Of a stretch of 64,000 bases of DNA, positions 29,625 through 56,927 are shown piece by piece. The number at the start of each line of letters is the position of its first letter. Positions within the stretch are counted from its first letter, which is position 1. The DNA comes from Mesorhizobium shangrilense (GTDB lineage Bacteria; Pseudomonadota; Alphaproteobacteria; Rhizobiales; Rhizobiaceae): positions 4,030,001 through 4,094,000 of the forward strand of contig NZ_JBEWSZ010000001.1 in the NCBI RefSeq assembly GCF_040537815.1. Reading direction: 5' to 3'. The position numbers were made by a program, and so were the translations under genes. The notes under the pieces are model-generated. The model did not search any database, had not been told where the DNA came from, and saw only the letters and a program-made list of their open reading frames with translations.

Positions 29625-29638
29625 TGACTACGTATTCA
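29625..29638. promoter_or_regulatory. LacI-type operator, copy 1
   Basis: TGACTACGTATTCA, a near-palindrome around the hexamer TACGTA. It lies just upstream of the permease/lactonase operon and 44 bases below the regulator's stop codon. A central CpG is the usual base step bound by the LacI hinge helices. Confidence 0.75.
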
Positions 29639-29681
29639 TATACCCGCGAATCAATTAGTCAACTTGCAAGTTTGGAGGATT

Positions 29682-30716
29682 TTAAGCCTTCAATAGGGGT
29701 TCTCGGACAGTACTTCTACGGATCAGCTCGCCGGGGATGGTATGGACTCTGGGTGCCCTTGGATCGGTTGAAGTGATGAACTCCAACGTTTTCTCAACCA
29801 TGAGCTCGAGGGGCTGACGTATCGTCGTCAAATCGTAGGCAGACCAGGCTGCACTCGGTACATCGTCAAATCCAACCACCGAAACGTCCTGTGGAACACG
29901 CTTGCCCAGCTTGAAGCGCAGACAGTCGAGCGCGCCAAACGCAATAACGTCGTCGCCACAGAACACGCCATCGATATCCGGGACGTCGGCGAACAACGCG
30001 GCGGTCGCGTCCATACCCCACCGATAGTCGAATATTTCTTCGATGACGGTAACCGGTGCCAGGCCGGCCTTTTCCACCGCCGAAACGAAGCCGACCCTGC
30101 GATCCGTGTTCGTAGATGAATTCGGCCTGCCCCCAATGTACGCGAGGCGCTTACAACCACCACTGATCATGAGTTGTGCTGCCTGGGTGGCACCGAGCTG
30201 GTTGTCGCACCTGACCACAAAAGATTCAGACCGTTGGGAATGTCGGCTCAGGAGCACAACTGGCACGTTCATCGATTCGCACATTTCTGCCGCTTTGGAT
30301 GAGAGCAAAGCGGTGGTGATAATGATCCCTGCAACCCGGTACTTCAAAACCGCAGGGATAACATCGTCCACTGTCTGATGGTGGGCCGCGTTAAAAAGAA
30401 GAACCTCGCGGCCGCTGCGCTGAATGGCGTCCGTCAGGGCATCTAGAGCTATGGGATAGAAAGGATTGATGATGTCGGCCATCACGACGGCGATAATGTT
30501 GGATTGCCCCTTCGTAAGCCCGCGCGCCAAAGGGTTTGGCCGATATCCCAGTTGTTCGGCGGCGTCCTCGATGCGTTGTCTAACGTCGCTCGCGACGTAG
30601 CCATTGTTCGCGATCACGCGTGAAACAGCTGCCTGAGACGCATTTGCCAGTCGCGCCACATCGTGTTGCGTGATCTGGCTGAATGGCTTGATTTGACCCG
30701 CGTCGTTTTCGCTCAT
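29682..30716 (-). CDS. LacI-family transcriptional regulator, likely master of the local regulon
   Basis: 344 residues. The helix-turn-helix ITQHDVARLANASQAAVSRVIANNGYVASDVRQRIEDAAEQLGYRPNPLARGL is complete, including the hinge. The periplasmic-binding-protein-like core follows with IIAVVMADIINPFYPIALDALTDAI and GVFCGDDVIAFGALDCLR. The gene lies in the centre of a region carrying at least seven matching palindromes, and the only other LacI trace here (42.5 kb) is a relic, so it is the best candidate binder. I see no copy of the palindrome at its own promoter. The effector is unknown. Confidence 0.92.
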   Translation of the reverse strand: MSENDAGQIKPFSQITQHDVARLANASQAAVSRVIANNGYVASDVRQRIEDAAEQLGYRPNPLARGLTKGQSNIIAVVMADIINPFYPIALDALTDAIQRSGREVLLFNAAHHQTVDDVIPAVLKYRVAGIIITTALLSSKAAEMCESMNVPVVLLSRHSQRSESFVVRCDNQLGATQAAQLMISGGCKRLAYIGGRPNSSTNTDRRVGFVSAVEKAGLAPVTVIEEIFDYRWGMDATAALFADVPDIDGVFCGDDVIAFGALDCLRFKLGKRVPQDVSVVGFDDVPSAAWSAYDLTTIRQPLELMVEKTLEFITSTDPRAPRVHTIPGELIRRSTVREPLLKA

Positions 30717-31219
30717 TGCTTACACCAGTTGAAGTCGAAGATGTCCGAACGGCAATCTTCGCAATCTGTTAGCTCTCTGATCCGAGTCGCGTCAATAGAA
30801 CCAGTTTGGCAGTTTGAACCTTGCGTGCACTTGACCGAGACTTATACGCATGGTGACCCGGCTCTCGTCGGCGTTCTGACGAGACCTCACCCTTACCCGA
30901 TGCAGAGACATTGCCTACGCCACCCCTGGCAGGGTCGCCAGAACTGTGGGGCGCAAGAAATCCGCGGCAGAACAGTCCAACTTGATGTGTTGTGGCGCAT
31001 TTTTCTATGAGCCAGGCAGGCGCGATTTGATGTCATCATCGGCGTCGTGCCTGCCGCGATCGGCTTGGCATCCGGCAACAGGGACCCTTTTCAGCTTGGT
31101 TGTGAAATTGGTCTGCAGCAGCTCGGAACCGGCCGGGGCCGCTCACAGAAGGACTCCGGACCGCAGCTGGCATCCATCGTCTGCTCCATCCGCGCCTGGT
31201 AGGTGCGCTTGCTTTGGTC
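30717..31219. other. Intergenic region between the LacI gene and IS630
   Basis: About 500 bases with no gene I can support. Short minus-strand frames near 31080-31200 might be a decayed tail of whatever followed the permease gene before IS630 inserted. No similarity is recognised. The LacI-gene promoter must lie in the first part. Confidence 0.5.
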
Positions 31220-31228
31220 TAGAGCATT

Positions 31229-31840
31229 TCATGTTTTGACGGAAGCGTATCCTGCGTTTTCGAAGTAGTTCTTGCATTCGGCTGCCTCGATGGTTTCGAC
31301 AAGGTGGCCGATGTGACGCCATGTGTCCTCGACGGTGCGCTTCTGGGCCTGGCGCATCCAGTGTTTGATCTTGGCGAAGGCCTGCTCGATCGGATTGAGA
31401 TCCGGCGAGTAGGGCGCCAGGTACCAGAGCCTGGCGCCGGCAGCCTTGATCATCTGCCTAATGGCCGCCGACTTATGGCTTCCCAGATTATCCATGACGA
31501 CGATATCGCCGGGCTTCAGCACGGCGATGAGCTGCTGCTCGACATAGGCGCGGAAGCATTGGCCGTTGATCGGGCCGTCGAAGACGCAAGGCGCCGCGAG
31601 CCGATCCCAGCGCAGCGCGCCGAGGAAGGTCATCGTGCGCCAGTGGCCGTGCGGAGCAAAGCCGCGCAGCCGCTTGCCCTTCGGCCCCCAACCTCGCAGC
31701 GGAGCCATGTTGGTCTTGATCCAGGTCTCGTCGATGAAGACCAGGCACTGCGGATCGAGGCCGGTTTGCCAAGACCGCCATCGCTGACGCCTGCGGGCAA
31801 TATCAGCACGCGCCTGCTCAATGGCGAACAGCGTTTTTTT
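31229..31840 (-). CDS. IS630 transposase, catalytic part (frame B)
   Basis: About 204 residues in the second frame, entered at the A8 run (31834-31841). The DDE triad motifs are all visible: CLVFIDETWIKTN, DIVVMDNLGSHKS and LAPYSPDLNPIEQAFAKIKHW. An internal ATG at 31708 exists but would lose the first Asp. Seven A's instead of eight would fuse it to frame A, so transcriptional slippage or programmed frameshifting probably makes the full enzyme. Confidence 0.88.
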   Translation of the reverse strand, partial: KKTLFAIEQARADIARRRQRWRSWQTGLDPQCLVFIDETWIKTNMAPLRGWGPKGKRLRGFAPHGHWRTMTFLGALRWDRLAAPCVFDGPINGQCFRAYVEQQLIAVLKPGDIVVMDNLGSHKSAAIRQMIKAAGARLWYLAPYSPDLNPIEQAFAKIKHWMRQAQKRTVEDTWRHIGHLVETIEAAECKNYFENAGYASVKT

Positions 31841-32177
31841 TGAAGCTCAGGCCCTCGCGGCGCAGGAACAGCCAGACCGTATTGTGCGAGACCTTGACCC
31901 CGCGCGCATCCAACTCGTCCTTCAGCCGATGCAGCGTCAGTTCAGAGGTCTGATTGATCCGCTCCACGATGAAGGCCCGATACGGCTCCAGAACGCGCTT
32001 GCGGTGTCCGCCCATCTTGCCCGGCGCCACCGAGCCGGTCGCACGGTAACGCTGCGACCACTTCACTACAAAGGAAACTGCAACGCCAAAGCGCGATGCA
32101 ACCGCACGGCAGTTCTCGCCGGCGCCAACTGCCTCAACAACACGCTCACGAAGATCGTTTGAAAGGGCTCGCGTCAT
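31818..32177 (-). CDS. IS630 transposase, DNA-binding part (frame A)
   Basis: 119 residues with two helix-turn-helix units: LSNDLRERVVEAVGAGENCRAVASRFGVAVSFVVKWSQR and ELTLHRLKDELDARGVKVSHNTVWLFLRREGLSFKK. It ends shortly after the A8 slippery run. The combined A+B product is the usual length of about 315 residues. Confidence 0.88.
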   Translation of the reverse strand: MTRALSNDLRERVVEAVGAGENCRAVASRFGVAVSFVVKWSQRYRATGSVAPGKMGGHRKRVLEPYRAFIVERINQTSELTLHRLKDELDARGVKVSHNTVWLFLRREGLSFKKNAVRH

Positions 32178-32264
32178 CAGATGCTGGCCTCCACCCAGCC
32201 AGCATCTTGAATCACAAACAACCTTCTTTGAGAGTCCTACGATTCTCTCAAAACAGGAAAGGCT

Positions 32265-34274
32265 CTAGCTTCGCCCTCGCCCGATCACCACCGCGACGAG
32301 CATCACCGCACCGAAGATGATATCGCGTAGCGCAACAGGCAGGTTCGCACCTGTCACCAAAGTCCCTAGCGCGACCAGCATCAGGCAGCCCCCGAGAATG
32401 CCGAAATAATGCCCGCGTCCACCGCTGGCGAGTGTGCCGCCGATGAGTACCGCAGCGATCGAAGGCAGCAAGAATGGTGCGCCCATATTGAGCGTAGCGT
32501 GGCGACTGAAGCCCAGCAACAAGACGCCGGCCAATGCAGCGCAGACGCCGCTGAGCACATATACAAATGTTACAGAACGCTTAACAGCAACGCCGGAAAG
32601 ATGCGCGACGCGTGGATTGCTCCCGACGAGCACGATCTGCCTGCCAAAAACGCTGTAATTCAAAAGCCAAGTTGCGACAAACGTAAGCAAAAGCAGCAGC
32701 CAGCTGGCCGGCGCAAGGCCCAGAACGCGGCCCTCGAACAGCGAGACCGCAATGCCCGGCGCCTGTCCCTGAGCGAAACCGCCACTGTAGAGCAGGCCGG
32801 CGCTCTGCATCACGCCATTCATCGCCAAGGTCACTATTATTGCTGGAATGCCGAGTACGCTGATCAATAATCCGTTGAAGAGTCCGACCAGCGCGCCGAT
32901 ACCTATCGCCGCCGGTATTGCCCACAGAGCGACCACATCGGAACCGTTGGTCATGGTAGCCACGAAGACTCCCGTGAAGGTCAGAGTGTAGGGTACGGAG
33001 AGGTCGAGGCCGCCCGTCATCAAGACCGCACCCTGTCCGATTGCCAAAACGGCAAGGAAGACCGTGAGCACGAGCAGTGAATTCAGGTAGTTCAAACTGA
33101 AGCTGGAGGCTCCTACCACAATGAGCAGAGAGGCATAGACGAGAGCCAACAGTACCCAAGGCGGCAGCCAGCAACGAACGTCGACCTCGTTGCGGCGGAG
33201 CCAGCTCCGCAAGCCGCCTGTTTGAAGCTCTGGGATAGGTCTAGAGGGCGATATTGTGACGGATCGGCCGCGAGCTACACGAGGGGAGCGCGATACTAAC
33301 TCGGACAGGGATGAATATAGCGAGTGGCGCTGGCCGATCGAACCGCCGATCACCGCCGCGATAAGCAAGCCGGCCTCGACAATCGACGTCCAGTCGGAAA
33401 CAACACCGAGGTTAAGGAGGGCTGAGGAGATAATCATGAGACTCGTTGCAGCGAAGACCGCGCCGACGCAATCCCCTTTACCGCCGCCCAAGGCGACACC
33501 GCCTAGGACGGCGGCGGTGAAAATGCGCAGCAGCATGCCGCTGCCGATAAGCGGGTCACCCGTATTGGTCAGCGCGGCGAGGAAAATCCCCGCGACCCCG
33601 TAGAAAGCGCCCGCAAGCACATAACCCATGAATTTCGTGCGCTGGGTGTGAATACCGTTGGCAAATGCGGCCGCCTCGTCCGAACCCGTGGCGTAGAGGG
33701 CGGTTCCGAAACGGCTCGACTTCGCGAAGAACCAGACCAACAGGCCAGCCAAGATCACCGCGGCACTGCCGGGCACCGTGTTTACTATGAGGTCACCGGT
33801 GAAGACGCTGACAAGGCCGCTAGGAACGGTTCCGCCGGGGCTTGGCATCAGCAGAAGGTTTAGCCCCATGATCATGAACATGGTCGCAAGTGTAGCGACA
33901 ACTGATTGAATGCGAAGAACGGCCACCAGATAACCATTCAAAGCACCTGCAATCGCGCCAACTGCGATACCGCCAATGCAAAGTAGAACCTGTCCCGTGA
34001 AACTATCTGTCGCATTGAGTACGACGACCACGTTCACTAGCGCCACGACTGCGCCGCAGGACATGTCGAGGCCGCGGAGGATAAACACGATGGTGAGTCC
34101 CATGGCGGCAAAGGCGAGCGGCCCGGCATTGGTTACAATGGAACTCCATTCGAAATAGGAAAAGGGCTCGAACAGAAGTGTCTGCTGCCAGAGGAAAACG
34201 AGAATACAGAAGACGATCGGCACCAGAAGGTTCTGCTGACGAGAGACAAACCTGCGCACAGCAACAGCTGTCAT
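32265..34274 (-). CDS. Sugar-type ABC permease with two RbsC domains fused
   Basis: 669 residues from ATG 34274, one base after the ATPase stop. Two RbsC/MglC-like permease domains lie in tandem: residues about 10-310 (GPLAFAAMGLTIVFILRGLDMSCGAVVALVNVV) and about 360-669 (VLAIGQGAVLMTGGLDLSVPYTLTFTGVFVATM), each with about nine hydrophobic helices. A linker rich in Ser/Arg joins them. Normally each half is a separate protein that dimerises, so this one may form the whole channel alone. The stop codon TAG overlaps the right end of IS630; the pre-insertion sequence would also have read TAG, so the protein is intact. Confidence 0.9.
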   Translation of the reverse strand: MTAVAVRRFVSRQQNLLVPIVFCILVFLWQQTLLFEPFSYFEWSSIVTNAGPLAFAAMGLTIVFILRGLDMSCGAVVALVNVVVVLNATDSFTGQVLLCIGGIAVGAIAGALNGYLVAVLRIQSVVATLATMFMIMGLNLLLMPSPGGTVPSGLVSVFTGDLIVNTVPGSAAVILAGLLVWFFAKSSRFGTALYATGSDEAAAFANGIHTQRTKFMGYVLAGAFYGVAGIFLAALTNTGDPLIGSGMLLRIFTAAVLGGVALGGGKGDCVGAVFAATSLMIISSALLNLGVVSDWTSIVEAGLLIAAVIGGSIGQRHSLYSSLSELVSRSPRVARGRSVTISPSRPIPELQTGGLRSWLRRNEVDVRCWLPPWVLLALVYASLLIVVGASSFSLNYLNSLLVLTVFLAVLAIGQGAVLMTGGLDLSVPYTLTFTGVFVATMTNGSDVVALWAIPAAIGIGALVGLFNGLLISVLGIPAIIVTLAMNGVMQSAGLLYSGGFAQGQAPGIAVSLFEGRVLGLAPASWLLLLLTFVATWLLNYSVFGRQIVLVGSNPRVAHLSGVAVKRSVTFVYVLSGVCAALAGVLLLGFSRHATLNMGAPFLLPSIAAVLIGGTLASGGRGHYFGILGGCLMLVALGTLVTGANLPVALRDIIFGAVMLVAVVIGRGRS

Positions 34275-34275
34275 T

Positions 34276-35814
34276 TTAAGATTTCCATGCGGAAGAGGCA
34301 GTCGTGGGTGTTCGTTCCCGGTTGCCCATGGCAGCCGAAACAATGCGGTTTTCACTCAGCTGTTCCCGGTCTAGCTCCAATGCGATCCGCCCTTCGTACA
34401 TAACGAGTACCCGGTCGCAGAGGTGTACAAGCTCTGCCGTCTCTGTCGAATAGAGCAGTACCGAACGGCCCTCGGCGGCGAACTCCCTGATCAACATATA
34501 GATCTGGTGCTTCGCACCGATATCGACGCCTCGCGTCGGATCGAACATGAGCAGGATGCGGCTTCCCGCAACCAGCCACTTGCTCATCACGATTTTTTGC
34601 TGGTTTCCGCCGCTGAAGGCTTTGCCCGGTAAGAAATCTGCGCGGGGCGGCACATTGAGTCGGGCGAAAGCAGCGTCGACCAGAGCACGTTCGTGCGTCC
34701 GGTTGAGATGGCCCCAATGCGAGAGGCTTCCAATGCTGGGCATAGAAGCAGTCTCACGGGCCGGGCGCTCAAGCAACAGGCCCTCTCTTGCGCGATCCTC
34801 TGGAATGAGACCCATGTCAATGCCGTTCGCGATGGCGTCGCGCGGCGATGACAGCCGCACGGCGCGGCCGTCGATCTCGATGGTGCCCGACGACACCGGC
34901 GCGTCGCCGAAGAGGGCGCGAAAAAGATCGAACTGGCCCATACCTTGGAGGGCCGCTAGCCCGAGCACTTCCCCCGCCCTCAGGGTGAACGACACCTCGC
35001 GCACCTTCGATCCCGTCGATACTCTCTGCGCTGCGAGCGGTGGGGTCGCGCTGCTTGCGCGACAATCGATCCATGCCGGAAAAATGGTGCCTAGGGAACG
35101 CCCGATGACATGTTCGACCACCTCTTCATCGGAAACATCGGTGGCGGCGAACGTGCCTACATGACGGCCGTTGCGAAGGAGCGTCATGCTGCTGCAGAAG
35201 CGGCGGACCTCTTCCATACGGTGCGAGACGAATGCGACTGTGACCCCCTTGGCCGAGAGCCGCTCGACTATTTCATGCAGCCAATCGACATCGTCGGCCG
35301 AAAGGGCTGATGTGGGCTCGTCGAGCAGAAGCAGCTTGGGGTCGCGCGATATCGCCTTGGCGATCTCAATCTTTTGGCGGGTGGCGAGATCGAGGTCGGT
35401 TGTCAACGATTGTGGGTCTATAAAGGATAGGCCAAGTGCAGCAAGAGCTTCCTCCGCCTTTTGACAGGTCAGACGATTTGATACGACCCCGAAACGGATT
35501 GGCTGATAGGGGATCAGCAGGTTCTCAGCGACCGTGAGATGTGGAACAAGTGTCATCTCTTGGAACGCAGTCTGAACGCCCAGTTTATGGGAGGTCTTTG
35601 GGGAGGCTGTCGCTATAGCGCGACCAAAGATGGAAAAGCTGCCGCTATCTGGAGCGACGAGACCACTGAGGATTTTCACGATGGTGGATTTTCCTGCGCC
35701 ATTTTCGCCAATCAAGGCGCGAACCTCTCCCGAACCAATGCTGAATGATACGTCGTCGAGCGCTACGGTCGCTCCATAGCGCTTGGTTAGGTTGGCGATC
35801 TCGACTGCATGCAT
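34276..35814 (-). CDS. Sugar ABC transporter ATP-binding protein (RbsA/MglA type)
   Basis: 512 residues from ATG 35814 (MHAVEIANLTKRYGATVAL). Two ABC domains: the first with GENGAGKSTIVKILSG, LATRQKIEIAKAIS and LLLLDEPTSAL; the second with a divergent Walker A (VLGLAALQGMGQFDLFRALFG) and FSGGNQQKIVMSKWL, as is usual for CUT2 carbohydrate transporters. It pairs with the fused permease and the binding protein. CUT2 systems carry ribose, xylose, polyols and autoinducer-2, and more rarely purines or lactones. Confidence 0.93.
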   Translation of the reverse strand: MHAVEIANLTKRYGATVALDDVSFSIGSGEVRALIGENGAGKSTIVKILSGLVAPDSGSFSIFGRAIATASPKTSHKLGVQTAFQEMTLVPHLTVAENLLIPYQPIRFGVVSNRLTCQKAEEALAALGLSFIDPQSLTTDLDLATRQKIEIAKAISRDPKLLLLDEPTSALSADDVDWLHEIVERLSAKGVTVAFVSHRMEEVRRFCSSMTLLRNGRHVGTFAATDVSDEEVVEHVIGRSLGTIFPAWIDCRASSATPPLAAQRVSTGSKVREVSFTLRAGEVLGLAALQGMGQFDLFRALFGDAPVSSGTIEIDGRAVRLSSPRDAIANGIDMGLIPEDRAREGLLLERPARETASMPSIGSLSHWGHLNRTHERALVDAAFARLNVPPRADFLPGKAFSGGNQQKIVMSKWLVAGSRILLMFDPTRGVDIGAKHQIYMLIREFAAEGRSVLLYSTETAELVHLCDRVLVMYEGRIALELDREQLSENRIVSAAMGNRERTPTTASSAWKS

Positions 35815-35849
35815 GGCTGGCACCCCGCAAAGGCCCTCCATACGATGGC

Positions 35850-35898: not shown

Positions 35899-37032
35899 CT
35901 ACGGATTGCCGGTTAGCGCCTGCTGAATGCCGATTTCGGCCGTCTCCGGCGTCCAGAAGTCGATAACGTAGTCGTTCGGCACCAGTGCAGGCGGCAGTGT
36001 GTTGCAGCCTTGGCCAAACTCCTGGGCGCTACCGGTTTGGCAGAGCTTAACGTTGGCGGTAATAACCTGGACAGGATCGTAGGTGATGGTTCGCGGGTGC
36101 TTTTTGCCGTCGAGAACGTCCTTTACGATCTTCAACGCGTAGGGGACGCCTGAGAGTCCGGATCCGACAGACAGGCCGCGCGCGCCAAGCGCGCCTTCGA
36201 TGCCCGATTCCTTCGGGAGCATCTGGATTCGCGCGCCATTCTCGGCCTCGCCTGAACAGGGTATGATCGGATTTTTGGGATACCAGCCGTCCTCTACCTG
36301 CATTTCCGTGAGGGTGTCGCAGCCCAATTGTGCGACAATGCCATTGACATCCTCCCAGCTGTGCGTGGCCAGGAACTCACGCATCTTGAGCCTGGTTTCC
36401 TGCGCACTCCACATGCCGACTAGCTGCGCTGTCACCTTCATTTCAGGATGATCTGCAAGCGCGTCGACCAATCCCCTGTGATGGTCTTCGTTGTAGGACA
36501 CGCCGGGGACGCCAAGGAACTCAATGATATTGCCCTTCCCGCCTAAGGCGTCGATGATAAACTGGGTGCGTATCTTGCCTAGCTTCACGCCGTCCGCCTT
36601 GAGCGTATAGGCACATGGCTCAGTCACACCGTTGATCACAGCCACTACGATTCCGCGGTCGCAGGCACGCTTTATGACGCCATTCAACGCGGTGGGCGAA
36701 ATGGGATATGCGATTATGCCGTCGGCACCGGCACTTATCATCGATGTAATCTGTTGGATTTGGCGCTGCGCGTCAGCCCCCGAGGCCTGTACCCGAAGCT
36801 CGACTTTATCGGCGAAGCCCGGCATCTTCGACAGCGCTATAATGGCATTCATGGCTTCCGTCTGCCAAGTATTACCAAGATAGCTCATGCTGTAGTAAAT
36901 CAGGTACTTGCCGTCAGCCGTTTTTGCTTCCGCTTGTCCCCACGAGCCCGTGAGGCTCAGCGCGGCCAAAAGCGCGAGACTCGTTACACGCGGCGACAAT
37001 ATTCTGCGTAAACTCATCAAATACTGAAACAT
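35899..37032 (-). CDS. Sugar-type ABC transporter substrate-binding protein
   Basis: 377 residues from ATG 37032 behind AGAGGAGAACGATA. Signal peptide of about 37 residues ending AEA-KTA. The fold is the periplasmic-binding-like type I domain of CUT2 systems: YLIYYSMSYLGNTWQTEAMNAIIALSK, MISAGADGIIAYPISPTALNGVIKRACDRGIVVAVING and the late QLGCDTLTEMQVEDGWYP. It carries more Cys than usual. The ligand is unknown. Confidence 0.9.
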   Translation of the reverse strand: MFQYLMSLRRILSPRVTSLALLAALSLTGSWGQAEAKTADGKYLIYYSMSYLGNTWQTEAMNAIIALSKMPGFADKVELRVQASGADAQRQIQQITSMISAGADGIIAYPISPTALNGVIKRACDRGIVVAVINGVTEPCAYTLKADGVKLGKIRTQFIIDALGGKGNIIEFLGVPGVSYNEDHHRGLVDALADHPEMKVTAQLVGMWSAQETRLKMREFLATHSWEDVNGIVAQLGCDTLTEMQVEDGWYPKNPIIPCSGEAENGARIQMLPKESGIEGALGARGLSVGSGLSGVPYALKIVKDVLDGKKHPRTITYDPVQVITANVKLCQTGSAQEFGQGCNTLPPALVPNDYVIDFWTPETAEIGIQQALTGNP

Positions 37033-37119: not shown

Positions 37120-38049
37120 TTACCGAGCGCCGCAACGATTGACGTAAACCGACCACAAGCTGGTCAGGCCTGTGAGATAAAGGCGGTCGCCACGTGGGCC
37201 GCCGAATACGAGATTGGTGATCGCTTCCGGAACGAGGATGCGGCCGACCAGATCGCCATTTGGCGCAAGGCACTGAACGCCGTCACCAGCGCTCGTCCAG
37301 ATGAAGCCCTCCGTATCCAAGCGAAAGCCATCCGGAAGCCCCGGATTGACCTCGGCGAAAATTTGGCTCGGCCCAAGGCGCTTATCGTCCCGTACGTCGA
37401 AGACACGGAAATGATGTGCGCCGTCTGGAAATTCGGTGCAGCCAGTATCGGTCACGTACAGCTTCTGCTCATCGAGACTGAAAGCCAGCCCATTCGGCAT
37501 CTGGCAATCATCGGCAACCATGGTAACGGCGCCGCTGTGGGGATCGACACGATAGATGTTGCAGGTGGCCTGTTCGCGTTCGCCGTGTACGCCTTCCCAA
37601 TTCTCCCGGATGCCATAACTTGGATCGGTGAACCAGATCGACCCGTCGCTTTTGACGACAACGTCGTTAGGTGAGTTGAGGCGTCGTCCCTCGAACCGGT
37701 CAGCAAGCACGGTCAACGAGCCGTCATATTCCGTTCTGACAACCCGCCTGCCACTGTGCTCGCAAGTCAGGAGCCTGCCTTGGTTATCGCGAGTGCTTCC
37801 GTTAGCATGGTTGCTTGGACTGCGGAAAATTGTGGTGCCCTGACCCTCCACATACCGAAGCATCCGATTGTTCGGAATGTCGCTCCATATGAAGACGTCG
37901 AGATCAGCGAAATACACCGGACCTTCACCAAGGCGCGTCCCCCGAAACAGGCGCTCTAGGCGAGGCCCGCCGAAAACGCATTGCTTAAACACCGGCTCGA
38001 CGAAGTCGAACGTGAGGTCGAATGTATCCACCGAATGCCACCCCAGCAT
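37120..38049 (-). CDS. SMP-30/gluconolactonase/LRE family protein
   Basis: 309 residues forming a six-bladed propeller lactonase: GPVYFADLDVFIWSDIPNNRMLRYVEGQ, HANGSTRDNQGRLLTCEHSGRRVVRTEYDG, LNSPNDVVVKSDGSIWFTDPSYGI and PNGLAFSLDEQKLYVTDTG. The metal-binding Glu, Asn and Asp of these motifs are present. It is the first gene of the operon with the CUT2 transporter and has LacI-type operator copy 2 about 63 bases upstream. It probably hydrolyses a lactone of an imported sugar acid or a related compound. Confidence 0.92.
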   Translation of the reverse strand: MLGWHSVDTFDLTFDFVEPVFKQCVFGGPRLERLFRGTRLGEGPVYFADLDVFIWSDIPNNRMLRYVEGQGTTIFRSPSNHANGSTRDNQGRLLTCEHSGRRVVRTEYDGSLTVLADRFEGRRLNSPNDVVVKSDGSIWFTDPSYGIRENWEGVHGEREQATCNIYRVDPHSGAVTMVADDCQMPNGLAFSLDEQKLYVTDTGCTEFPDGAHHFRVFDVRDDKRLGPSQIFAEVNPGLPDGFRLDTEGFIWTSAGDGVQCLAPNGDLVGRILVPEAITNLVFGGPRGDRLYLTGLTSLWSVYVNRCGAR

Positions 38050-38111: not shown

Positions 38112-38125
38112 TGAATACGTAACCA
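38112..38125. promoter_or_regulatory. LacI-type operator, copy 2
   Basis: TGAATACGTAACCA, in front of the SMP-30/CUT2 operon. It is 93 bases from copy 3, which serves the divergent gene, a distance that would allow one tetramer to bridge both. Confidence 0.75.
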
Positions 38126-48792: not shown

Positions 48793-48871
48793 GATTTCCT
48801 CGTGGATCAATCTAAGCCACAGGTGGCTCTCGCGGTAAGATTAGGACTTGATTGTTACGGCGGGGCGGGGA

Positions 48872-50050
48872 TTACGAAATCCGTTGCCCGGCCTCGTCGA
48901 GTAAGACACAGCCTTGCGGATCAAATCCGACATCGATGGTCTCGCCTTCGCGGATGATTTGGCCGTTGATCGGAGCGTTGGCGCGGATGCTCGTCCTGCC
49001 GCCGATGGCGATTTCGTAGATGGCGCTGCCGCCAAGATACGAGCTTGAGATCACCCGGCCGGACAGCCGATTGCCGGCTGTGGTTCCGACCGATAGTTTC
49101 TGGGGCCGAACGACCACCGTCACCTTACTGCCAGGCGCGATAGGTCTAGGCGAGATCACGTTGATCGTCGGGCCGGCGTCAAGCGTAACCACGGTCTGTC
49201 CGGCGGATACGCTCGCGGTGCCTGCCAGCATGTTTGCCTTGCCGAGGAAATCGGCGACAAAGGCAGTGGCCGGCGTCTCGTAGACCTCCTCCGGAGTACC
49301 TATTTGCTCCATCGCGCCTCTGTTCATGACCACGATGCGGTCCGACATCGAAAGCGCTTCTTCCTGGTCGTGGGTGACGAAGATGGCGGTGATGCCGGTC
49401 TCCTTCTGGATCTTTTTGATCTCGACGCGCATCTCCTCGCGCATGTTGGCGTCGAGCGCCGACAGCGGCTCGTCGAGCAGCAGCACCTGCGGCTCGAAGA
49501 CGATGGCGCGGGCAAGCGCGATACGCTGCTGTTGGCCGCCCGACAGTTGCGAGGGCAGCTTCTTCTCGCTCCCCGGCAGCCGCACCATGGCCAGCGCCTG
49601 GCTGACCCTGCGCGTGATCTCGGGCTTCGGCACGTTGCGGTATTTCAGCCCGAAGGCAACATTGTCGAACACGGTCTTGTGCGGAAACAGCGCATAGCTC
49701 TGGAAAACCAGCCCGATATTGCGCTTGTAGATCGGCACGTCGTCGACGCGCCGCCCGCCGATCATGATCTGGCCACCGGAAATATCGACCAGCCCGGCGA
49801 TGGAGCGCAGGATCGTCGTCTTGCCGCAGCCCGAAGGCCCGAGCAGCGTGACGAAGCTTCCCTTGGTGATCGACAGCGAGAAATCCCGCACCGCGACGAA
49901 CTTGCCGTAGGCGATGTCGATGTTGCGGAATTCGACCGCCGGCTGGCCCATCCCGGCGGCTTTGCCGGATTGAGCTTCGCCAGCGCCGGCTTTCGCCACC
50001 CCGGCCATTGCCGGCCGGGGTGCTTCGGAGAGGTCTTGACTATCAGTCAC
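48872..50050 (-). CDS. Pot-type ABC transporter ATP-binding protein
   Basis: 392 residues from GTG 50050, overlapping the binding-protein gene's end by eight bases. Walker A LLGPSGCGKTTILRSIAG, signature [19 protein letters not shown], Walker B VLLLDEPLSALDANMREEMR and the C-terminal TOBE-2 domain (ISPRPIAPGSKVTVVVRPQKLSVG) identify a PotA/CysA-like importer ATPase. The first about 38 residues are an Ala/Gly/Pro-rich extension not seen in PotA, so an internal start near MGQPAVEF is possible. Confidence 0.92.
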   Translation of the reverse strand: MTDSQDLSEAPRPAMAGVAKAGAGEAQSGKAAGMGQPAVEFRNIDIAYGKFVAVRDFSLSITKGSFVTLLGPSGCGKTTILRSIAGLVDISGGQIMIGGRRVDDVPIYKRNIGLVFQSYALFPHKTVFDNVAFGLKYRNVPKPEITRRVSQALAMVRLPGSEKKLPSQLSGGQQQRIALARAIVFEPQVLLLDEPLSALDANMREEMRVEIKKIQKETGITAIFVTHDQEEALSMSDRIVVMNRGAMEQIGTPEEVYETPATAFVADFLGKANMLAGTASVSAGQTVVTLDAGPTINVISPRPIAPGSKVTVVVRPQKLSVGTTAGNRLSGRVISSSYLGGSAIYEIAIGGRTSIRANAPINGQIIREGETIDVGFDPQGCVLLDEAGQRIS

Positions 50051-51185
50051 CTTTCGCGATCCTGTCCCACTGCTTGGTCCAAGCGTCCTCGTTGGTCGCC
50101 CAGTAGACCGGATCGGCGAAGGTCAGCGCCTTCATCGTGCCCGTATTGTCGAAGGCCGGCAGCTTCTCGATCTTCTCGGTGAGCTTGACCTTGGTCGGAT
50201 CGAGCGAGGGCGGATAGCTCTGGCCCTCGGCCACCGCGATCGAGGTCGCGGGATCGAGCATGAAGTTGATCAGTTCCTCGCATTCGGCCATCGGCGAACC
50301 CTTGAGGATCAGCATGTCCTCCATCCAGGCATAGGAGCTGGCCGGATCGAGATAGCCGATCGGCTGGCCCTGGTCCTGCAGTGCCGCGACGCGGCCCGAC
50401 CAGGCATCGGTCACCACGATCTCGCCCTTGGAGAGGAGGTCCATCAGCTCGGCGCCGGAGCTCCAGAACTTCTTGGCGAGGTCGCGCGTCTCGCGCACCT
50501 TGGCCCAGATCGCATCCATGTCCTTGATGTTGTTCGGGTCCTGCCCGGTGGCAAGAGCAGCGTACCAGACGCGCGTGGTCATGTCGGCATAGCCACCGAC
50601 CTTGCCGGCATATTTCTTGTCGAGCAGCAGCGCCGCGCCCTTTTCCTTCGCTTCCTCCGGCGAGATCACCTTGGTGTTGTAGGCGATGCCGCTGGTGCCG
50701 TAGTCGTAAGGCACGGCCGACAGTTTTGGCGTCAGCTTGCGGAACGGCTCGATCATGGCGGTCAGCACATTCGCCATGTTGGGAATGTTGGCCTCGTTGA
50801 TCTCCGAGTTGAAACCGGCATTGACGTATTTGATGTAGTAGTTGACGCCGGAGGAATGGATGACCTGGAAGTCGCCGGGCTTCGAGGTCTTGATCTTGGT
50901 GATGATCTCGTCCTCGTCGCCGAACGTGCCCTGCACGACCTTGATGCCGGATTTCGCCGTATAGGGCTGGAAGGCGTATTTATCGATCGCTTCCTGCACC
51001 ACGCCGCCCCAGCCGTCGAAGCGCACTTCCGAGACGGCGGCCAGCGCGCGTCCCATCCAGGGCATCGACAATCCGGTGGCGGCGGCAGCCGCTGCCGTCA
51101 GGCTCAGGAACGAGCGTCGGCTGATATCGCCGTTCGCGTAGCGGTTGCTCAGCCGCTCAAGCCGTTTGGTGTTGGTCAGTTTCAT
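50043..51185 (-). CDS. Pot-type ABC transporter substrate-binding protein (PotD-like)
   Basis: 380 residues from ATG 51185 behind GGGAGAACTGCA. A twin-arginine-like signal (SRRSFLSLTAAAAAATGLSMP) leads the protein out. VRFDGWGGVVQEAIDKYAFQPYTAKSGIKVVQGTFGDEDEIITKIKTS is the PotD-like opening; FMLDPATSIAVAEGQSYPPS and WDRIAKG are the usual late features. Together with the ATPase it appears to descend from a different operon than the permease pair upstream (see 51201). Ligand probably a polyamine-like or amino-acid derivative. Confidence 0.92.
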   Translation of the reverse strand: MKLTNTKRLERLSNRYANGDISRRSFLSLTAAAAAATGLSMPWMGRALAAVSEVRFDGWGGVVQEAIDKYAFQPYTAKSGIKVVQGTFGDEDEIITKIKTSKPGDFQVIHSSGVNYYIKYVNAGFNSEINEANIPNMANVLTAMIEPFRKLTPKLSAVPYDYGTSGIAYNTKVISPEEAKEKGAALLLDKKYAGKVGGYADMTTRVWYAALATGQDPNNIKDMDAIWAKVRETRDLAKKFWSSGAELMDLLSKGEIVVTDAWSGRVAALQDQGQPIGYLDPASSYAWMEDMLILKGSPMAECEELINFMLDPATSIAVAEGQSYPPSLDPTKVKLTEKIEKLPAFDNTGTMKALTFADPVYWATNEDAWTKQWDRIAKGD

Positions 51186-51200
51186 TGCAGTTCTCCCATT

Positions 51201-51332
51201 TCACGTTGCTTTTTTTCTGAACCGAGTGAGGCTTTGCAGGATGAGCCCGCCTATCAAGGGAATGCCGACCGTCACCAGGATCATGACGGTGCCCAATGCA
51301 TTCACTTCGGGGCTGATCGAGATCTTCAGCAT
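51201..51332 (-). pseudogene. C-terminal relic of a Pot-type permease
   Basis: 43 codons, MLKISISPEVNALGTVMILV onward to FRKKAT and a stop. They match the last part of the intact PotC-like protein (52248) closely but with clear differences (ISPEV for ISPEI, QSLTRFRKKAT for ESLTKLKRRGEPKGEA). It is therefore from a paralogous operon and not a tandem copy. Confidence 0.85.
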
Positions 51333-51588
51333 AGACCGCGGCCGACCGGGTGCCGGTTTCGAAATTGTCCGACATCACGATGCCGGGACTTCCAGGCTGG
51401 TCGAGATGGACATGGCTGTCGATCCCGCCCGGCATGACTAGAAGGCCGGACGCGTCGATGATCTCGGGCGCGCCGTCCAGGTTCCTAGCAAGGATGACGA
51501 TACGGCCGTCCTCTATTCCGATGTCGGACGGGAACCGGTCAGTCGCGATGGCGACGGTTCCGCCCTTGATAATCGTATCCAATGGCAT
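51333..51588 (-). pseudogene. N-terminal relic of a hydantoinase/dihydropyrimidinase
   Basis: From ATG 51588: DTIIKGGTVAIATDRFPSDIGIEDGRIVILARNLDGAPEIIDASGLLVMPGGIDSHVHLDQPGSPGIVMSDNFETGTRSAA. The zinc-binding HVH of the amidohydrolase fold is present, then the frame runs into the permease relic at about 51333. The remaining about 380 residues are lost. It starts 24 bases after the DUF3830 gene, so it was once part of that operon. Confidence 0.8.
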
Positions 51589-51611
51589 TTCGAGGCGTCC
51601 TGGTTCATCGA

Positions 51612-52022
51612 CTACAGAGAGAACTCGATGTTCTGCGCACCGTGCCAAAGGACCTTCTTGCCCAGCTCGGCCAAATTCTCCTGGCCTTCGGTGATGGTCA
51701 GGAAATGATTTCCGGCAAGCTGGCCCATCTTGCTGGTGAAATTGACGCCGCCATAGGCCAGCAGGATCTCCGTCTCGCTAAAGCCGCCCGGATAGAGGAT
51801 GAACTGGCCCGGCGCCGGATAGCTGGTCGCGTTCTCGTAGCTGACGCCGAAATCCGTCTCGCCCAATGGAATCCAGCAGCCTTCGCCGCTCCATTTGACA
51901 TGGATGATGCGCTCCTTGTAAGGCAGCAGAGAGAGGAAAAGCGCGCAGGTCTTGGGTGCAAGCTCTTCTTCCAGCCTCGCCTTCAAGCTGAAGTCGCCTG
52001 CCTTGATGTTGATCGTTTTCAC
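51612..52022 (-). CDS. DUF3830 family protein (cyclophilin-like fold)
   Basis: 136 residues from GTG 52022, preceded by CGGAGAATCGGCAA. INIKAGDFSLKARLEEELAPKTCALFLSLLPYKERIIHVKWSGEGCWIPLG and SYPAPGQFILYPGGFSETEILLAYGGVNFTSKMGQLAGNHFLTITEG match DUF3830, usually found beside transporters and hydantoinases. Molecular function unproven; peptidyl-prolyl isomerase activity is not expected since the residues differ. It joins the permease genes to the hydantoinase relic. Confidence 0.85.
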   Translation of the reverse strand: MKTINIKAGDFSLKARLEEELAPKTCALFLSLLPYKERIIHVKWSGEGCWIPLGETDFGVSYENATSYPAPGQFILYPGGFSETEILLAYGGVNFTSKMGQLAGNHFLTITEGQENLAELGKKVLWHGAQNIEFSL

Positions 52023-52247
52023 TTGCCGATTCTCCGTAGTGTCAGAGTTTGAACGGCGTTGTCCCGCCGCGTCGAGGAATTGAGGTGGTCGCCCGATCAG
52101 GGCGGCCGGGCACCGGACCCCGGCGGCAGGCCGGATCGATTCAATGCCCAGGCTTTTCATGCCTGTCTTGTCGCGGCGCTCAGTTCGGCACCGGTATCGG
52201 CTTTAAGTAGTGCAGCCGTTCCAGCCGCTTGCCGTTCGATAGTTTCA

Positions 52248-53084
52248 TCATGCTTCTCCCTTTGGTTCACCTCGTCTCTTCAACTTCGTCAGGCTCTCCA
52301 GGATCAGGCCGCCGATCAACGGGATCCCGACGGTCACCAGGATCATCACGGTGCCGAGCGCGTTGATCTCCGGACTGATCGAGATCTTGAGCATCGACAG
52401 GATCTGGGTGGGCATGGTCTCCACGCCCGCCGGTCGCCAGAACAGGCTGGCCGAGGTATTGTCGAACGAGATGGTGAAGGCGAGCAGCGCACCACCCACG
52501 ACCGCCGGGATGAGAAGCGGCAGCGTGATCTCGCGGAAGGACGAGAAGCGCGAGGCGCCCAGCGAAAGCGCCGCCTCCTCATAGACGCGCCTTATCCCGA
52601 CCATGCGCGCCTGCGCGATCAGCACCACATAGGGCACGGCCAGCATGATGTGGCCGAGCACCAGCAGGAGCATGGTGCGCGGCTGGTCGACCGCCTTGAT
52701 CAGCACCAAGAGGCCGACGCCGAGGATGGTTTCCGGCACCAGCGCCGGCAGGATCACCAGCGTGCTCAGCGCCTGCTTGCCGGGAAACTCGAAGCGCACC
52801 AGCGCGAAGGCCGTGACGACGCCGACTGCCGTGGCGACGGCGGCTGTGACCACCGCGATCCACAACGAGGTGCGGAAGGCGGACAGCACGGCATCGTTGT
52901 TCATCAGCTTGGCGTACCATTGCAGGGAAAAGCCGGTCATCGGGAAGCCGCCGAACATCGAGGCGTTGAACGACAGGATGACGGTCGCCACGATCGGGGC
53001 GAACATGAAGATGTAGACGCAGAGCGTGACGAAGCCGGTCAGCCGCCACGCCCACCGGCCTTCTTCCTTACGTCGCGCCGTCAT
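52248..53084 (-). CDS. Pot-type ABC transporter permease (PotC-like)
   Basis: 278 residues from ATG 53084, overlapping the upstream permease by four bases. About six transmembrane helices (LTGFVTLCVYIFMFAPIVATVILSF first). The EAA loop YEEAALSLGASRFSSFREITLPLLIPAVVGG is intact. It forms the channel together with the 53081 gene product. Confidence 0.93.
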   Translation of the reverse strand: MTARRKEEGRWAWRLTGFVTLCVYIFMFAPIVATVILSFNASMFGGFPMTGFSLQWYAKLMNNDAVLSAFRTSLWIAVVTAAVATAVGVVTAFALVRFEFPGKQALSTLVILPALVPETILGVGLLVLIKAVDQPRTMLLLVLGHIMLAVPYVVLIAQARMVGIRRVYEEAALSLGASRFSSFREITLPLLIPAVVGGALLAFTISFDNTSASLFWRPAGVETMPTQILSMLKISISPEINALGTVMILVTVGIPLIGGLILESLTKLKRRGEPKGEA

Positions 53085-54043
53085 CCGCCCAACCCTTTCA
53101 CGATCTGCGACATGCCCATGTAGCGGGTGTAGATGGCGGCGAAGAAGCCGAGCACGATGAACAGCACGATGGAGAGCGTGGCGCCCATCGGCCAGTTTAG
53201 TTCGCCCAGGATGGTGTCGTAGATCAGGTTGCCGAACAGCGCGTCGCGTCCGGAACCGAGCAACTGCGGCGTCACATAGCTGCCGGCGGCCAGCACGAAG
53301 CAGAGCAGCAAGCCGGCAGCCAGCCCCGGCAGCGACAGCGGCAGCGTGACCTCCCGGAACGCCTGCGCGCTGGTGCAGCCCATCGAGCGGGCCGCCGAGA
53401 TCAGCGTGCGGTCGATGCCTTCGAGGCTGACATAGACGTTGAGGATCATGTAGGGCAGCAGGAAGTGCAAAAGCCCCAGGATCACCGCGCCCCCGTTGTA
53501 GAGCATCGGCAGCGGCTCGCTGATGATGCCCATCTTCAGCAGCGCGACGTTGATGACGCCCTGTTCGCCGAGGATGTTGATCCACGAGAAGGTGCGGATG
53601 GTGAAGCTGATCCAGAACGGCACGATGAGCAGGAGCAGCAGCACCCACTTGTGCCTAAAGGTGGTGGCCCAGATGAAATAGGCCGGGAAATAACCGAGCA
53701 CCCCGCAAAGCAGCGCGGTGATGGCGCCGACCCTCAGCGTTTTCAACAGGAAGCCTGAATAATAGCTGTCGGTCAGGAATTCATGCCAGTTCGCCGTCGT
53801 CAGCGCGCTGGTTTCGACGCCCGCCGTGACGAAGGTGAAGAAGGTGTAGGCCGCCATCATGGCGATCGGCAGTACCAGCAGGAAGATAAGCAGCAAGAGC
53901 ACCGGCGCGACCAGCATCCAGGCCAGCCGTGGATCATACAAAGTCCATCGCTTGTTCATGTTCGCCGTAACCATCTTATCGAAACCGGCAGGGGGCGTAG
54001 GGCTTGGGTCGTTGAACGGTGTCGACTGAAGCCACTCCTGCAT
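53081..54043 (-). CDS. Pot-type ABC transporter permease (PotB-like)
   Basis: 320 residues from ATG 54043 with AGAGGGAC upstream. PRLAWMLVAPVLLLLIFLLVLPIAMMAAYTFF starts the membrane part; the EAA loop ISAARSMGCTSAQAFREVTLPLSLPGLAAG is intact. It is the first gene of a mosaic operon (PotB-like, PotC-like, DUF3830, hydantoinase relic, PotD-like, PotA-like) and has LacI-type operator copy 6 about 60 bases upstream. Confidence 0.93.
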   Translation of the reverse strand: MQEWLQSTPFNDPSPTPPAGFDKMVTANMNKRWTLYDPRLAWMLVAPVLLLLIFLLVLPIAMMAAYTFFTFVTAGVETSALTTANWHEFLTDSYYSGFLLKTLRVGAITALLCGVLGYFPAYFIWATTFRHKWVLLLLLIVPFWISFTIRTFSWINILGEQGVINVALLKMGIISEPLPMLYNGGAVILGLLHFLLPYMILNVYVSLEGIDRTLISAARSMGCTSAQAFREVTLPLSLPGLAAGLLLCFVLAAGSYVTPQLLGSGRDALFGNLIYDTILGELNWPMGATLSIVLFIVLGFFAAIYTRYMGMSQIVKGLGG

Positions 54044-54104: not shown

Positions 54105-54118
54105 TGTATACGTAACCA
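54105..54118. promoter_or_regulatory. LacI-type operator, copy 6
   Basis: TGTATACGTAACCA in front of the Pot-type operon, matching copy 2 at 12 of 14 positions. Confidence 0.75.
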
Positions 54119-54315: not shown

Positions 54316-54320
54316 GGTCT

Positions 54321-55250
54321 CTAGAAGGAGACCTTATCACTCCCCTTTAACTGAAGCATTTTTCTGGCTTCCGCCGGGGTTGCGATTGAGAGACCGAGTC
54401 CCTCGATAATACCACGCACTTTCGTGACCTGTTCGGCGTTGGTGGTCGCCAATTGGCCCGGCCCTGACCAAAGTGAATCTTCCAGGCCGACCCGAACATT
54501 GCCGCCCATCGCGGCGCCTTGCGCAGCAATCCGCATCTGATTTGCGCCCGCTCCTAACACCGACCAAGAATATTCTGTACCGAAAAGCCTGTCGGCAGTA
54601 CGCTTCATATGCATCACGTCTTCCGGATGGGCACCAATGCCGCCCAAGAGGCCGAATACGCTCTGGACGAAGAAAGGGGGTTTGACGAGAGCACGGTCCA
54701 CAAAATGAGCCAGGGTGTACAGGTGTCCAATGTCGTAACACTCTATTTCAAAACGGGTTGCGTTTTCTACACAGGTCGTCAGGATATGCTCGATGTCGGC
54801 GAAGGTGTTTTTGAAGACGCGATCACGGGAGCCTTCGAGATAGGGCTTCTCCCAATCATGCTTGAACTCTTTGAAGCGCTTCAGCATCGGATAGAGGCCG
54901 AAATTCATCGATCCCATGTTGAGTGAAGCGACCTCAGGCTTGAAGATTACGACTGGCCTCAGCCGCTCTTCAACGGTCATCGTCGGAGCCCCGCCAGTGG
55001 TGATGTTCACTACGCAGTCGGAGCGTTGCTTTATGATCTTCAGGAAAGGCTCGAACGCTTGTGGCGACTGGTCGGGCAAGCCATTGATCGGATTGCGTGC
55101 GTGAAGATGGACAACAGCAGCGCCGGCTTCGGCCGCTCCAATCGCCGCAGCGGCGATTTCGGACGCCGTTACAGGCAGATGGGACGACATCGAGGGCGTA
55201 TGGATCGATCCCGTAACGGCACAGGTAATGATAACTTTTCTTGTAGGCAT
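54321..55250 (-). CDS. BKACE (DUF849) beta-keto acid cleavage enzyme
   Basis: 309 residues from ATG 55250 behind GAGGGACAGCCGC. KVIITCAVTGSIHTPSMSSHLPVTASEIAAAAIGAAEAGAAVVHLHARNP carries the HLHAR zinc motif; NITTGGAP, VASLNMGSMNFG and ECYDIGHLYTL are typical, and the late VRVGLEDSLW is the usual Glu-Asp stretch. These enzymes condense a beta-keto acid with acetyl-CoA to give a new CoA ester and acetoacetate (3-keto-5-aminohexanoate in Kce). It shares strand and region with an aminotransferase upstream and CoA-transferase and thiolase downstream. Confidence 0.93.
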   Translation of the reverse strand: MPTRKVIITCAVTGSIHTPSMSSHLPVTASEIAAAAIGAAEAGAAVVHLHARNPINGLPDQSPQAFEPFLKIIKQRSDCVVNITTGGAPTMTVEERLRPVVIFKPEVASLNMGSMNFGLYPMLKRFKEFKHDWEKPYLEGSRDRVFKNTFADIEHILTTCVENATRFEIECYDIGHLYTLAHFVDRALVKPPFFVQSVFGLLGGIGAHPEDVMHMKRTADRLFGTEYSWSVLGAGANQMRIAAQGAAMGGNVRVGLEDSLWSGPGQLATTNAEQVTKVRGIIEGLGLSIATPAEARKMLQLKGSDKVSF

Positions 55251-55271
55251 GCGGCTGTCCCTCATCATAGT

Positions 55272-55515
55272 TTATAGTTTGCCGCCGGATCCAGAGTTTG
55301 CGCCATACTTGACGCCATCGGCGACGAACTTGTTCGCCACCGAGATGCCTTGCTTCGGATCTGAGACGTCATCGCCGATCTCCAATTTCAACTTCTCACC
55401 GTTCACTCCGCCAGACGCATTGATATCAGCGGCAGCCTGTTCGGCTCCCTTCTGAACCTGGGCTCCGAAGGCCGCGTTCGGGCCCGTAATCGGACCTGCG
55501 ACGCCGATCCCCTTG
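55272..55515 (-). pseudogene. Branched-chain amino-acid binding protein (LivJ-type) relic
   Basis: [20 protein letters not shown], then [50 protein letters not shown], is the N-terminal third of a LivJ-type protein without its signal peptide. It is cut after about 75 codons and lies between the BKACE and aminotransferase genes. Confidence 0.85.
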
Positions 55516-55530
55516 CGGCGTGTCAGGCGC

Positions 55531-56877
55531 CTATTGGACCTCCTCGCGGACCCATCCGTCGATCCGCCCGTCCATGGTGGCCAGCGCCGTATCGAGGCGG
55601 CGAAGCAGTTCCTGCACTTCGTCACCGGATATGATTAGCGGAGGCGAAATGATCACGGCGTTGTTGAGTGGAGGGACGCCCGCCGGATAGACGATCAGAC
55701 CATTATCGAAACAATCTGCCACGAAGGTCGCCGACGTGTTTCTACTCTCGTCAGGAGCCCGGCGCGATGCGCGGTCCATGACGAATTCGAAGCCCCACAA
55801 CAGACCGCGGCCACGCACATCGACCATATGGCTGTAGCGCTGAGAAAATGCTTCCAGACCTGCCTTGAGCTCTTCTCCGCGCAGATTTGCATTTTCAAGC
55901 AATTTCTCCCGCTCGACATAGTTCAATACGGCCAACGAGACGGCTGCGCCGACCGGATTTCCGGAAAACGTATGGCCGTATGGAGGTGCGGCGGAATTCT
56001 GCCGCAACGTCTCAATGATATGTTCGTGCACGATTATCGCTGCCATCGGCGCGTATCCGGCGCTGGTGCCTTTGCCGGTGGTAATGATGTCGGGCACAAT
56101 ACCTTCGCCGATGGAAGCAAACCAGGCGCCCGTGCGACCCAATCCCGTAATGACTTCGTCCATGATCAGGAGAACGCCGAGCCGGTCGCATATCTCGCGG
56201 AGCATTGTGAAATAACCCGCAGGGGGCATCAACACCCCGCCGGCCGCGCCCACTATCGGCTCTACTATAACAGCCGCAACCGTATCGATCCCTTCCCGGA
56301 GAAGGGCGTCTTCCCAATCTTGAGCACACTTTCTGGCGTAGTCAGCCTCACTGAGATCGCCGGCATAGCGATAGGCATAAGCCGGAGGCACAACCGGAAA
56401 CGGGTGGAGCAACGGGCCGTAATCCGCACGCCGGGTAGCATGGCCGGACATCGAAACCGCGCCCATAGTCACGCCGTGATAGCTGGTGTGTCTACCGAGT
56501 ATCTTTACCTTGCGCGACAGACCTTTGGAGCGCCAATAGTTTAGAACCAGCCGGATGGCGTATTCGGAAGCCTCCGATCCACTGTTCACAAAAGAAACCC
56601 AGTTGAGATTTCCAGGGGCCAGAGAGGCAAGTTTGGTGGCAAGATCCTCAGCCGGCTTATTGGAGAACTGATTGAAAAAGGCAAAGGCGACTTCGCTCGC
56701 CTGCTTACGCATGACATCGGCAATCTCTTCGACGCCATGCCCGATATTAGCTGTCATCGCGCCGCTTGAGCCATCGATGTAGTCCTTTCCCTCGACATCG
56801 TAGAGAAAGACGCCTTTGCCATGGGAAACAATAGGGTATGTCTTCCCGATAGGATGCTTGAGAAGTGCGGTTGTCAT
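55531..56877 (-). CDS. Class III (omega-amino acid) aminotransferase
   Basis: 448 residues from ATG 56877 ([24 protein letters not shown]). PLP-site landmarks: [54 protein letters not shown] (Asp of the PLP pyridine), and the Lys in [20 protein letters not shown]. It moves an amino group from an omega-amino acid or amine to a keto acid, which would yield the aldehyde or beta-keto acid used by the BKACE enzyme. Operator copy 7 lies 37-50 bases upstream. Confidence 0.94.
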
Positions 56878-56913
56878 TGTCCCCTCCGACGTCAGAATAG
56901 GAGATTTCAAATG

Positions 56914-56927
56914 TGGATACGTATTCA
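56914..56927. promoter_or_regulatory. LacI-type operator, copy 7
   Basis: TGGATACGTATTCA in front of the aminotransferase gene, one mismatch from the perfect copies 3 and 5. Confidence 0.78.

Follow-up and report, generated by a model that had tools for sequence, protein, structure and literature searches.

Seven LacI-type palindromes mark a predicted local regulon of unusual gene content in Mesorhizobium shangrilense

The window analysed here is a stretch of 64,000 nucleotides of Mesorhizobium shangrilense (assembly GCF_040537815.1, contig NZ_JBEWSZ010000001.1, positions 4,030,001 to 4,094,000), and all positions given below are counted from its first base. Over 27 kb, from 29,625 to 56,927, it carries seven copies of the palindrome TGNNTACGTANNCA in front of transport and catabolic genes, together with one gene for a LacI-family regulator (29682–30716, minus strand), the product of which has 344 amino acids and the recognition helix SQAAVSRVI. 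A first-pass annotation, made from the letters alone, had proposed that the palindromes are LacI-type operators and that a LacI gene lies within the same region. The gene is where it was said to be, and its product scores above the cut-offs of both Pfam profiles of the family, PF00356 (51.5 bits, cut-off 27) and PF13377 (84.8 bits, cut-off 26.5). On the evidence set out below, the TGNNTACGTANNCA sites are probably the operators of a local LacI regulon.

All seven palindromes listed by the first-pass annotation, at 29625, 38112, 38205, 40673, 40761, 54105 and 56914, fit its pattern, and the two that it called perfect, at 38205 and 40761, both read TGGATACGTATCCA. Operator 1 (29625–29638, minus strand) reads TGAATACGTAGTCA on the minus strand and stands before a permease gene; operator 2 (38112–38125, minus strand, TGGTTACGTATTCA) fronts the SMP-30 and CUT2 genes; operator 3 (38205–38218, plus strand, perfect) fronts an acylase gene; operators 4 (40673–40686, plus strand, TGCATACGTATCCA) and 5 (40761–40774, plus strand, perfect) both lie upstream of an M20 dipeptidase gene; operator 6 (54105–54118, minus strand, TGGTTACGTATACA) fronts Pot-type importer genes and operator 7 (56914–56927, minus strand, TGAATACGTATCCA) an aminotransferase gene. 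The paired operators are 93 and 88 bp apart. A pattern search found no copies elsewhere in the window, and in the whole genome of 8,354,476 bases it found TGNNTACGTANNCA at exactly seven places, all within these 27 kb; the control, the operator pattern read backwards, gave 1 place, and dinucleotide-shuffled windows gave a mean of 0.01 matches to the first-pass pattern. The annotation had raised against its own reading that the palindrome might be common elsewhere in the genome; with 7/7 exact sites inside the 27 kb, it is not. When one mismatch was allowed, the genome held 44 places besides the seven, 51 in all, and the reversed control had 73, so that there is no genome-wide excess of near-sites and the operator signal is confined to the 27 kb. 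A weight matrix, built from the same seven sites and hence fitted to them, scored these at 19.0–23.8 bits and the next best position of the 64 kb at 10.2. The sites have the form of LacI-family operators as taken from the accessible part of a RegPrecise study (PMC4052901), namely an even palindrome, centred on CG, that precedes a start codon.

The position of the sites relative to the promoters is also regular. Five sites are accompanied by a complete TTGACA (6/6) and a sixth by TTGACT, on the strand of the downstream gene and starting 23–28 bp before the first operator base: 24 bp at operators 1 (TTGACT), 2 and 6, 23 bp at operator 5, and 28 bp at operators 4 and 7. Operator 3 is the only site lacking a good −35 hexamer in the scored range, its TTGACG at 31 bp falling outside. 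At random window positions (20,000 draws), the same range of 18–30 bp, which was chosen after some sites had been seen, yields a 6/6 match at a rate of 0.0024 and a 5/6 match at a rate of 0.046. The predicted PotB promoter reads TTGACA-16 nt-TATGGTTACGTATACA and that of SMP-30 reads TTGACA-16 nt-TATGGTTACGTATTCA, and with this spacing the −10 hexamer would run into the operator; at both 28-bp sites, it would sit against the operator or just over its edge. A predicted operator that overlaps or abuts the −10 position is the geometry expected of a repressor. The start codons were read as ATG at 29580 for the permease (after AGGAGGGG), ATG at 38232 for the acylase and ATG at 56877 for the aminotransferase.

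Evidence linking these sites to the regulator comes from other genomes. Of 397 genomes of the order, 26 contain TGNATACGTATNCA, which has 43 places in total and 4 in the own genome; its reversed control occurs at 6 single places. Site loci were examined in 21 of the 25 other genomes (G197, G126, G159 and G090 being left out), in fetched stretches of 3.6 to 39 kb, mostly 20 kb, and 17/21 of these loci, from 7 genera, encode a LacI protein with the helix SQ[SAP][AT]VSR; in L126, one site lies at the start of such a gene and another just before it. For comparison, LacI proteins (matches above 60 bits) were found in 0/20 loci chosen for a beta-keto acid cleavage enzyme (BKACE) and in 3/27 chosen for the acylase. 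The reverse test used 57 loci chosen by LacI similarity, including the window's own: TGNATAnnTATNCA is found no farther than about 1.5 kb away in 3/6 SQSAVSR loci (L009, L010 and L056, the first two of which look like a single pair of orthologues and may have to be counted as one) and in 0/50 other loci, with the window's own LacI set aside; the helix could not be recovered by pattern in 18 of the 50. As for that LacI, its nearest site, at 29625, lies about 43 bp past its stop codon and has C at position 4, so that it does not fit TGNATAnnTATNCA. Within the own genome, SQAAVSR appears in no other of the 21 LacI matches with a readable helix (21 of 26, own included). Site and helix co-occur elsewhere, as expected of operators of SQ-helix LacI proteins, and the predicted link to the regulator is well supported by the co-occurrence of the site or half-site with such proteins. 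The genes concerned differ from place to place; the regulon of G041, for example, would comprise a sugar-type importer of the ATP-binding cassette (ABC) class, an amidase and histidinol-dehydrogenase-like, short-chain dehydrogenase, cupin and RraA-like genes, and what is common to the predicted regulons elsewhere is the DNA reading, not the pathway. We also observed that L009 and L010, which belong to the same genus, each hold two identical TGAATAGCTATGCA sites within their 4-kb loci.

Operon membership was assigned from strand and spacing. The first-pass division into six transcription units corresponds to the six promoter regions, and its gene list had to be corrected at the acylase and M20 genes. 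Promoter 1 (operator 1) would serve an APC-family amino acid permease (28177–29580, minus strand) and a metallo-beta-lactamase (MBL)-fold hydrolase (27361–28146, minus strand), which resembles AttM/AiiA lactonases, has the HLHYDH motif and finds its nearest PDB relatives among the N-acylhomoserine lactonases, while it scores below the NCBIfam cut-offs of AttM (157.8 bits, cut-off 390) and AiiA (110 bits, cut-off 375). Promoter 2 (operator 2) would serve, all on the minus strand, an SMP-30/gluconolactonase-family protein (37120–38049) and the CUT2 importer, made up of a substrate-binding protein (35899–37032, Peripla_BP_4), an ATPase (34276–35841) and a permease (32265–34355) with two BPD_transp_2 stretches in one frame of 696 amino acids. 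Behind promoter 3 (operator 3) lies the acylase of the DMFA2_C family (38232–40418, plus strand), with the motifs YLAYAN, STYN and SHPEY. It had been annotated as dimethylformamidase (DMFase)-like, and the family likeness holds, but it is closer to N-acetyl-(R)-beta-phenylalanine acylase (588.7 bits) than to DMFase (359.6 bits). In the alignment of the three proteins, the motifs YxAYAN, TY and HPEY are kept; these we take to hold the metal in DMFase. By closeness and motifs, the protein classes as a putative N-acyl-beta-amino acid acylase. Promoter 4 (operators 4 and 5) precedes a remnant of an acylase gene and the M20 dipeptidase (40979–42367, plus strand), which scores above the cut-off of family PRK09104.

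The remaining two units are on the minus strand. Promoter 5 (operator 6) would serve a Pot-type importer, consisting of two permeases (52248–54043, in frames 52248–53648 and 53081–54043), a substrate-binding protein (50043–51185) and an ATPase (48872–50050), with a DUF3830 protein (51612–52160) amid the importer genes, followed by 3-oxoacid CoA-transferase subunits A (48085–48810) and B (47433–48083) and acetyl-CoA acetyltransferase, a thiolase (46248–47429). Promoter 6 (operator 7) would serve a class III aminotransferase (55531–56877) and the BKACE. The latter passes the NF053538 profile of 3,5-dioxohexanoate-cleaving enzymes (546.2 bits, cut-off 430) and its match to BKACE15 (8rip), of 473.5 bits, extends over almost all of the protein. 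The region also has a frame at 54321–55268 on this strand, downstream of the aminotransferase gene. Some other sequences lie among or near these genes. At 44066–46100, inside the regulon and with no operator, a GAPDH gene stands complete, together with the first part of a gene like that of pyruvate carboxylase (a frame of 252 amino acids); at 51157–51648, beside DUF3830 amid the Pot genes, a short piece resembles an amidohydrolase start, with 33 residues matched to Amidohydro_3; and gene debris at 42370–43150 includes a LacI-type helix stretch, LGVSVATVSNALSGKA, and a piece that we take to resemble the end of adenine deaminase. Finally, genes for a PucR-type regulator, flavin reductase, aldehyde dehydrogenase, luciferase-like monooxygenase and alpha/beta hydrolase occupy 19161–25601 and have no such operators.

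The seven sites are not fully independent, since sites 3 and 5 go back to a common origin: a single promoter region is present in two paralogous copies, around 38205 and around 40761, with 97/142 identical positions. Behind the second copy, a broken stretch at 40806–40928 (plus strand) encodes 41 residues that are 76% identical to residues 12–52 of the intact acylase, in a frame out of register with the preserved start codon ahead of it. The M20 gene starts 190 bp past that codon and, judging from this arrangement, seems to have come under an acylase-type promoter through decay of the acylase copy. The first-pass description of an M20 peptidase with two operator copies is right about the two upstream sites, while the promoter there belongs to the broken acylase gene.

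Gene neighbourhoods elsewhere were compared between 27 loci taken from the best acylase matches and 40 loci chosen for the BKACE or the operator. Class III aminotransferase genes lie near acylase homologues in 3/27 loci (in 2 directly adjacent) against 0/40, and PotC-like genes in 8/27 against 1/40; in one locus (L227), PotA, PotC, aminotransferase and acylase are all found within 8 kb. The BKACE loci share little of the window's gene set beyond an SMP-30 gene beside the BKACE in L210 and Pot genes in L224.

From the sites and their absence from the rest of the genome, the promoter geometry, the gene families and the co-occurrence of site and helix, all read in the sequence, we infer repression, operons, an inducer, an order of steps and a substrate as follows. 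In the absence of inducer, the LacI protein would sit as a local repressor on the seven operators and block transcription from the six sigma-70-type promoter regions; a small molecule accompanying the substrate would release it, and that the units share one inducer, as the first-pass annotation predicted, is a fair inference. Looping between operators was considered and rejected: the protein ends seven residues past the matched sensor domain, leaving no room for a tetramerisation helix. The compound broken down is apparently not an ordinary sugar. Acylase and aminotransferase, together with the BKACE, CoA-transferase and thiolase, suggest the breakdown of an N-acyl (beta-)amino acid, which would be imported, deacylated and transaminated to a beta-keto acid; cleavage of this acid with acetyl-CoA would give acetoacetate and an acyl-CoA, and the acetoacetate would be recycled to acetyl-CoA. 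This pathway is coherent, and we put it forward as a tentative possibility.

Several observations weigh against the assignment of the sites to this LacI protein. It does not look autoregulated, judging from the pattern search of the window, which found no operator upstream of its gene, whereas the accessible part of PMC4052901 gives 72% of LacI regulators as autoregulated. Two other LacI proteins of the genome share part of its helix (L157, SQTTVSRAL; L153, SQATVSFVL). As a single genus accounts for 8 of the 17 co-occurring loci, their independence is limited, and three loci with a single TGGATACGTATCCA each (L121, L125 and L129) have no LacI gene in the stretch; a fourth locus lacking an SQ-helix LacI, L127, is on a contig of 3.6 kb. 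In the reverse test, TGNATAnnTATNCA is missing within roughly 1.5 kb of the SQSAVSR genes of L014, L015 and L016; L015 is the G041 regulator, and its three sites are located 2–8 kb away. The sites of L009 and L010 have the centre GC instead of CG and that of L056 has AT, so the recurring part is the half-site. The promoter geometry differs as well, a 6/6 TTGACA accompanying 0/35 operator-like sites in other genomes and a 5/6 match 4/35 (better strand). Finally, a search of 146 genomes of the genus, in which up to 14 candidates per genome were scored, turned up no orthologue of the regulator: only the protein itself and a match of 40%, with the helix SVSTVSRAF, came through at E 1e-70. A scan of GTDB r220 by six peptide words, which may omit very near genomes, gave two relatives, the best at 40% identity; footprinting of this regulon was therefore impossible. 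One could argue from the missing autoregulation, the three similar single sites with no LacI nearby and the basis of the link in sequence that a different regulator reads the palindromes, or that they are a dispersed repeat or a methylation site. We regard this as improbable given the LacI-type anatomy of the sites, with an even palindrome and a central CG, their promoter-related position, the lack of further copies in the genome and their companionship with SQ-helix LacI genes elsewhere.

The choice of substrate meets contrary evidence of its own. The BKACE occurs in only 1/27 acylase loci, and its orthologues (73–82%, 20 loci) sit in other contexts, where a common short-chain dehydrogenase lies within about 8 kb in 8/20 loci (L205–L224), its copies being 48–69% identical to that of L212, which is directly beside the BKACE. 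This favours the view that the beta-keto acid in those genomes usually arises by oxidation of a beta-hydroxy acid, not by transamination; the presence of CUT2 and SMP-30 genes is a further pointer to a sugar acid or lactone. The LacI regulon could thus be real but serve a sugar acid, a deoxy-sugar or another beta-hydroxy acid by a route like oxidative deoxyribose catabolism, the acylase and aminotransferase acting on an N-acylated side group. The CUT2 importer, SMP-30 protein, LacI sensor, BKACE, CoA-transferase and thiolase would all fit, and the deoxyribose route of Pseudomonas simiae, as given in the accessible part of PMC6365646, consists of a lactonase, a short-chain dehydrogenase, a BKACE and an acetyl-CoA acetyltransferase. 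General Pfam scans, with no dedicated search, revealed no short-chain dehydrogenase among the regulon frames, and the Pot importer, APC permease, acylase, M20 dipeptidase and aminotransferase would be superfluous; we regard this substrate class as a rival of fairly low probability. Degradation of N-(3-oxoacyl)-homoserine lactones, in which the MBL-fold lactonase and the acylase would act before the BKACE cleaves the 3-oxo acid, appears very improbable: the nearest PDB relatives of the hydrolase and the acceptance of beta-ketohexanoate by the closely related BKACE15, according to the available text of PMC11961710, speak for it, whereas the hydrolase scores far under the AttM and AiiA cut-offs and it is not evident what the Pot and CUT2 importers would do for signals that diffuse.

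Acquisition of the region by transfer is likely, to judge from its sequence features. More than three sites were found in no genome among 60 relatives, and neither seven sites nor an orthologous LacI turned up in any other genome searched, a set of 61 genomes being covered as well. The G+C content is 56–60% over most of the region (one bin reaches 62.5%) against mostly 60–63% on the left flank, where bins of 56–59% also occur; as a sign of transfer, this contrast is weak. An IS630-type transposase region at 31250–32180, between the LacI and CUT2 genes, has counterparts on Mesorhizobium plasmids with an identity of up to about 92%, and a plasmid search returned short pieces only, the best-ranked covering 6% of the query.

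The literature searched, with most subscription papers outside the search and sources accessible in part, described no such regulon and did not contain these operator letters for a bacterial regulator. If correct, the proposed regulon joins enzymes of poorly known physiological role (the DMFA2-family acylase, the BKACE and DUF3830) in one inducible unit, and a single inducer screen could give a substrate to all three alike. The data also suggest a LacI recognition-helix class, SQxxVSR, with the half-site TGNATA, recurring in several families of the order, and this pairing could be used to find other regulons. As to individual enzymes, the nearest solved relative of the 38232 acylase, by sequence likeness only and over nearly the full length, is N-acetyl-(R)-beta-phenylalanine acylase (PDB 8huy, 8i59 and 8i5a), on which a literature search brought up no paper. 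The BKACE15 of Paracoccus denitrificans accepts 3,5-dioxohexanoate, beta-ketohexanoate and other substrates, and its physiological role is stated as unknown in the available part of PMC11961710; here, a BKACE stands in a predicted LacI regulon with an aminotransferase. With oxidative deoxyribose catabolism, as far as the accessible part of PMC6365646 describes it, the region has in common a lactonase, a BKACE and the recycling of acetoacetate, whereas uptake is by a major facilitator superfamily transporter there and by ABC importers here, and the general Pfam scans detected no deoxyribonate dehydrogenase in the region. Compared with the local LacI regulons of RegPrecise, in the portion of PMC4052901 available, the even palindrome, the central CG, the sites before start codons and the regulator beside its targets are the same, while here the genes are largely non-sugar genes, seven sites fall to one local regulator and autoregulation is lacking. 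A local LacI regulon is thus of a known kind, and it is the gene content here that is unusual.

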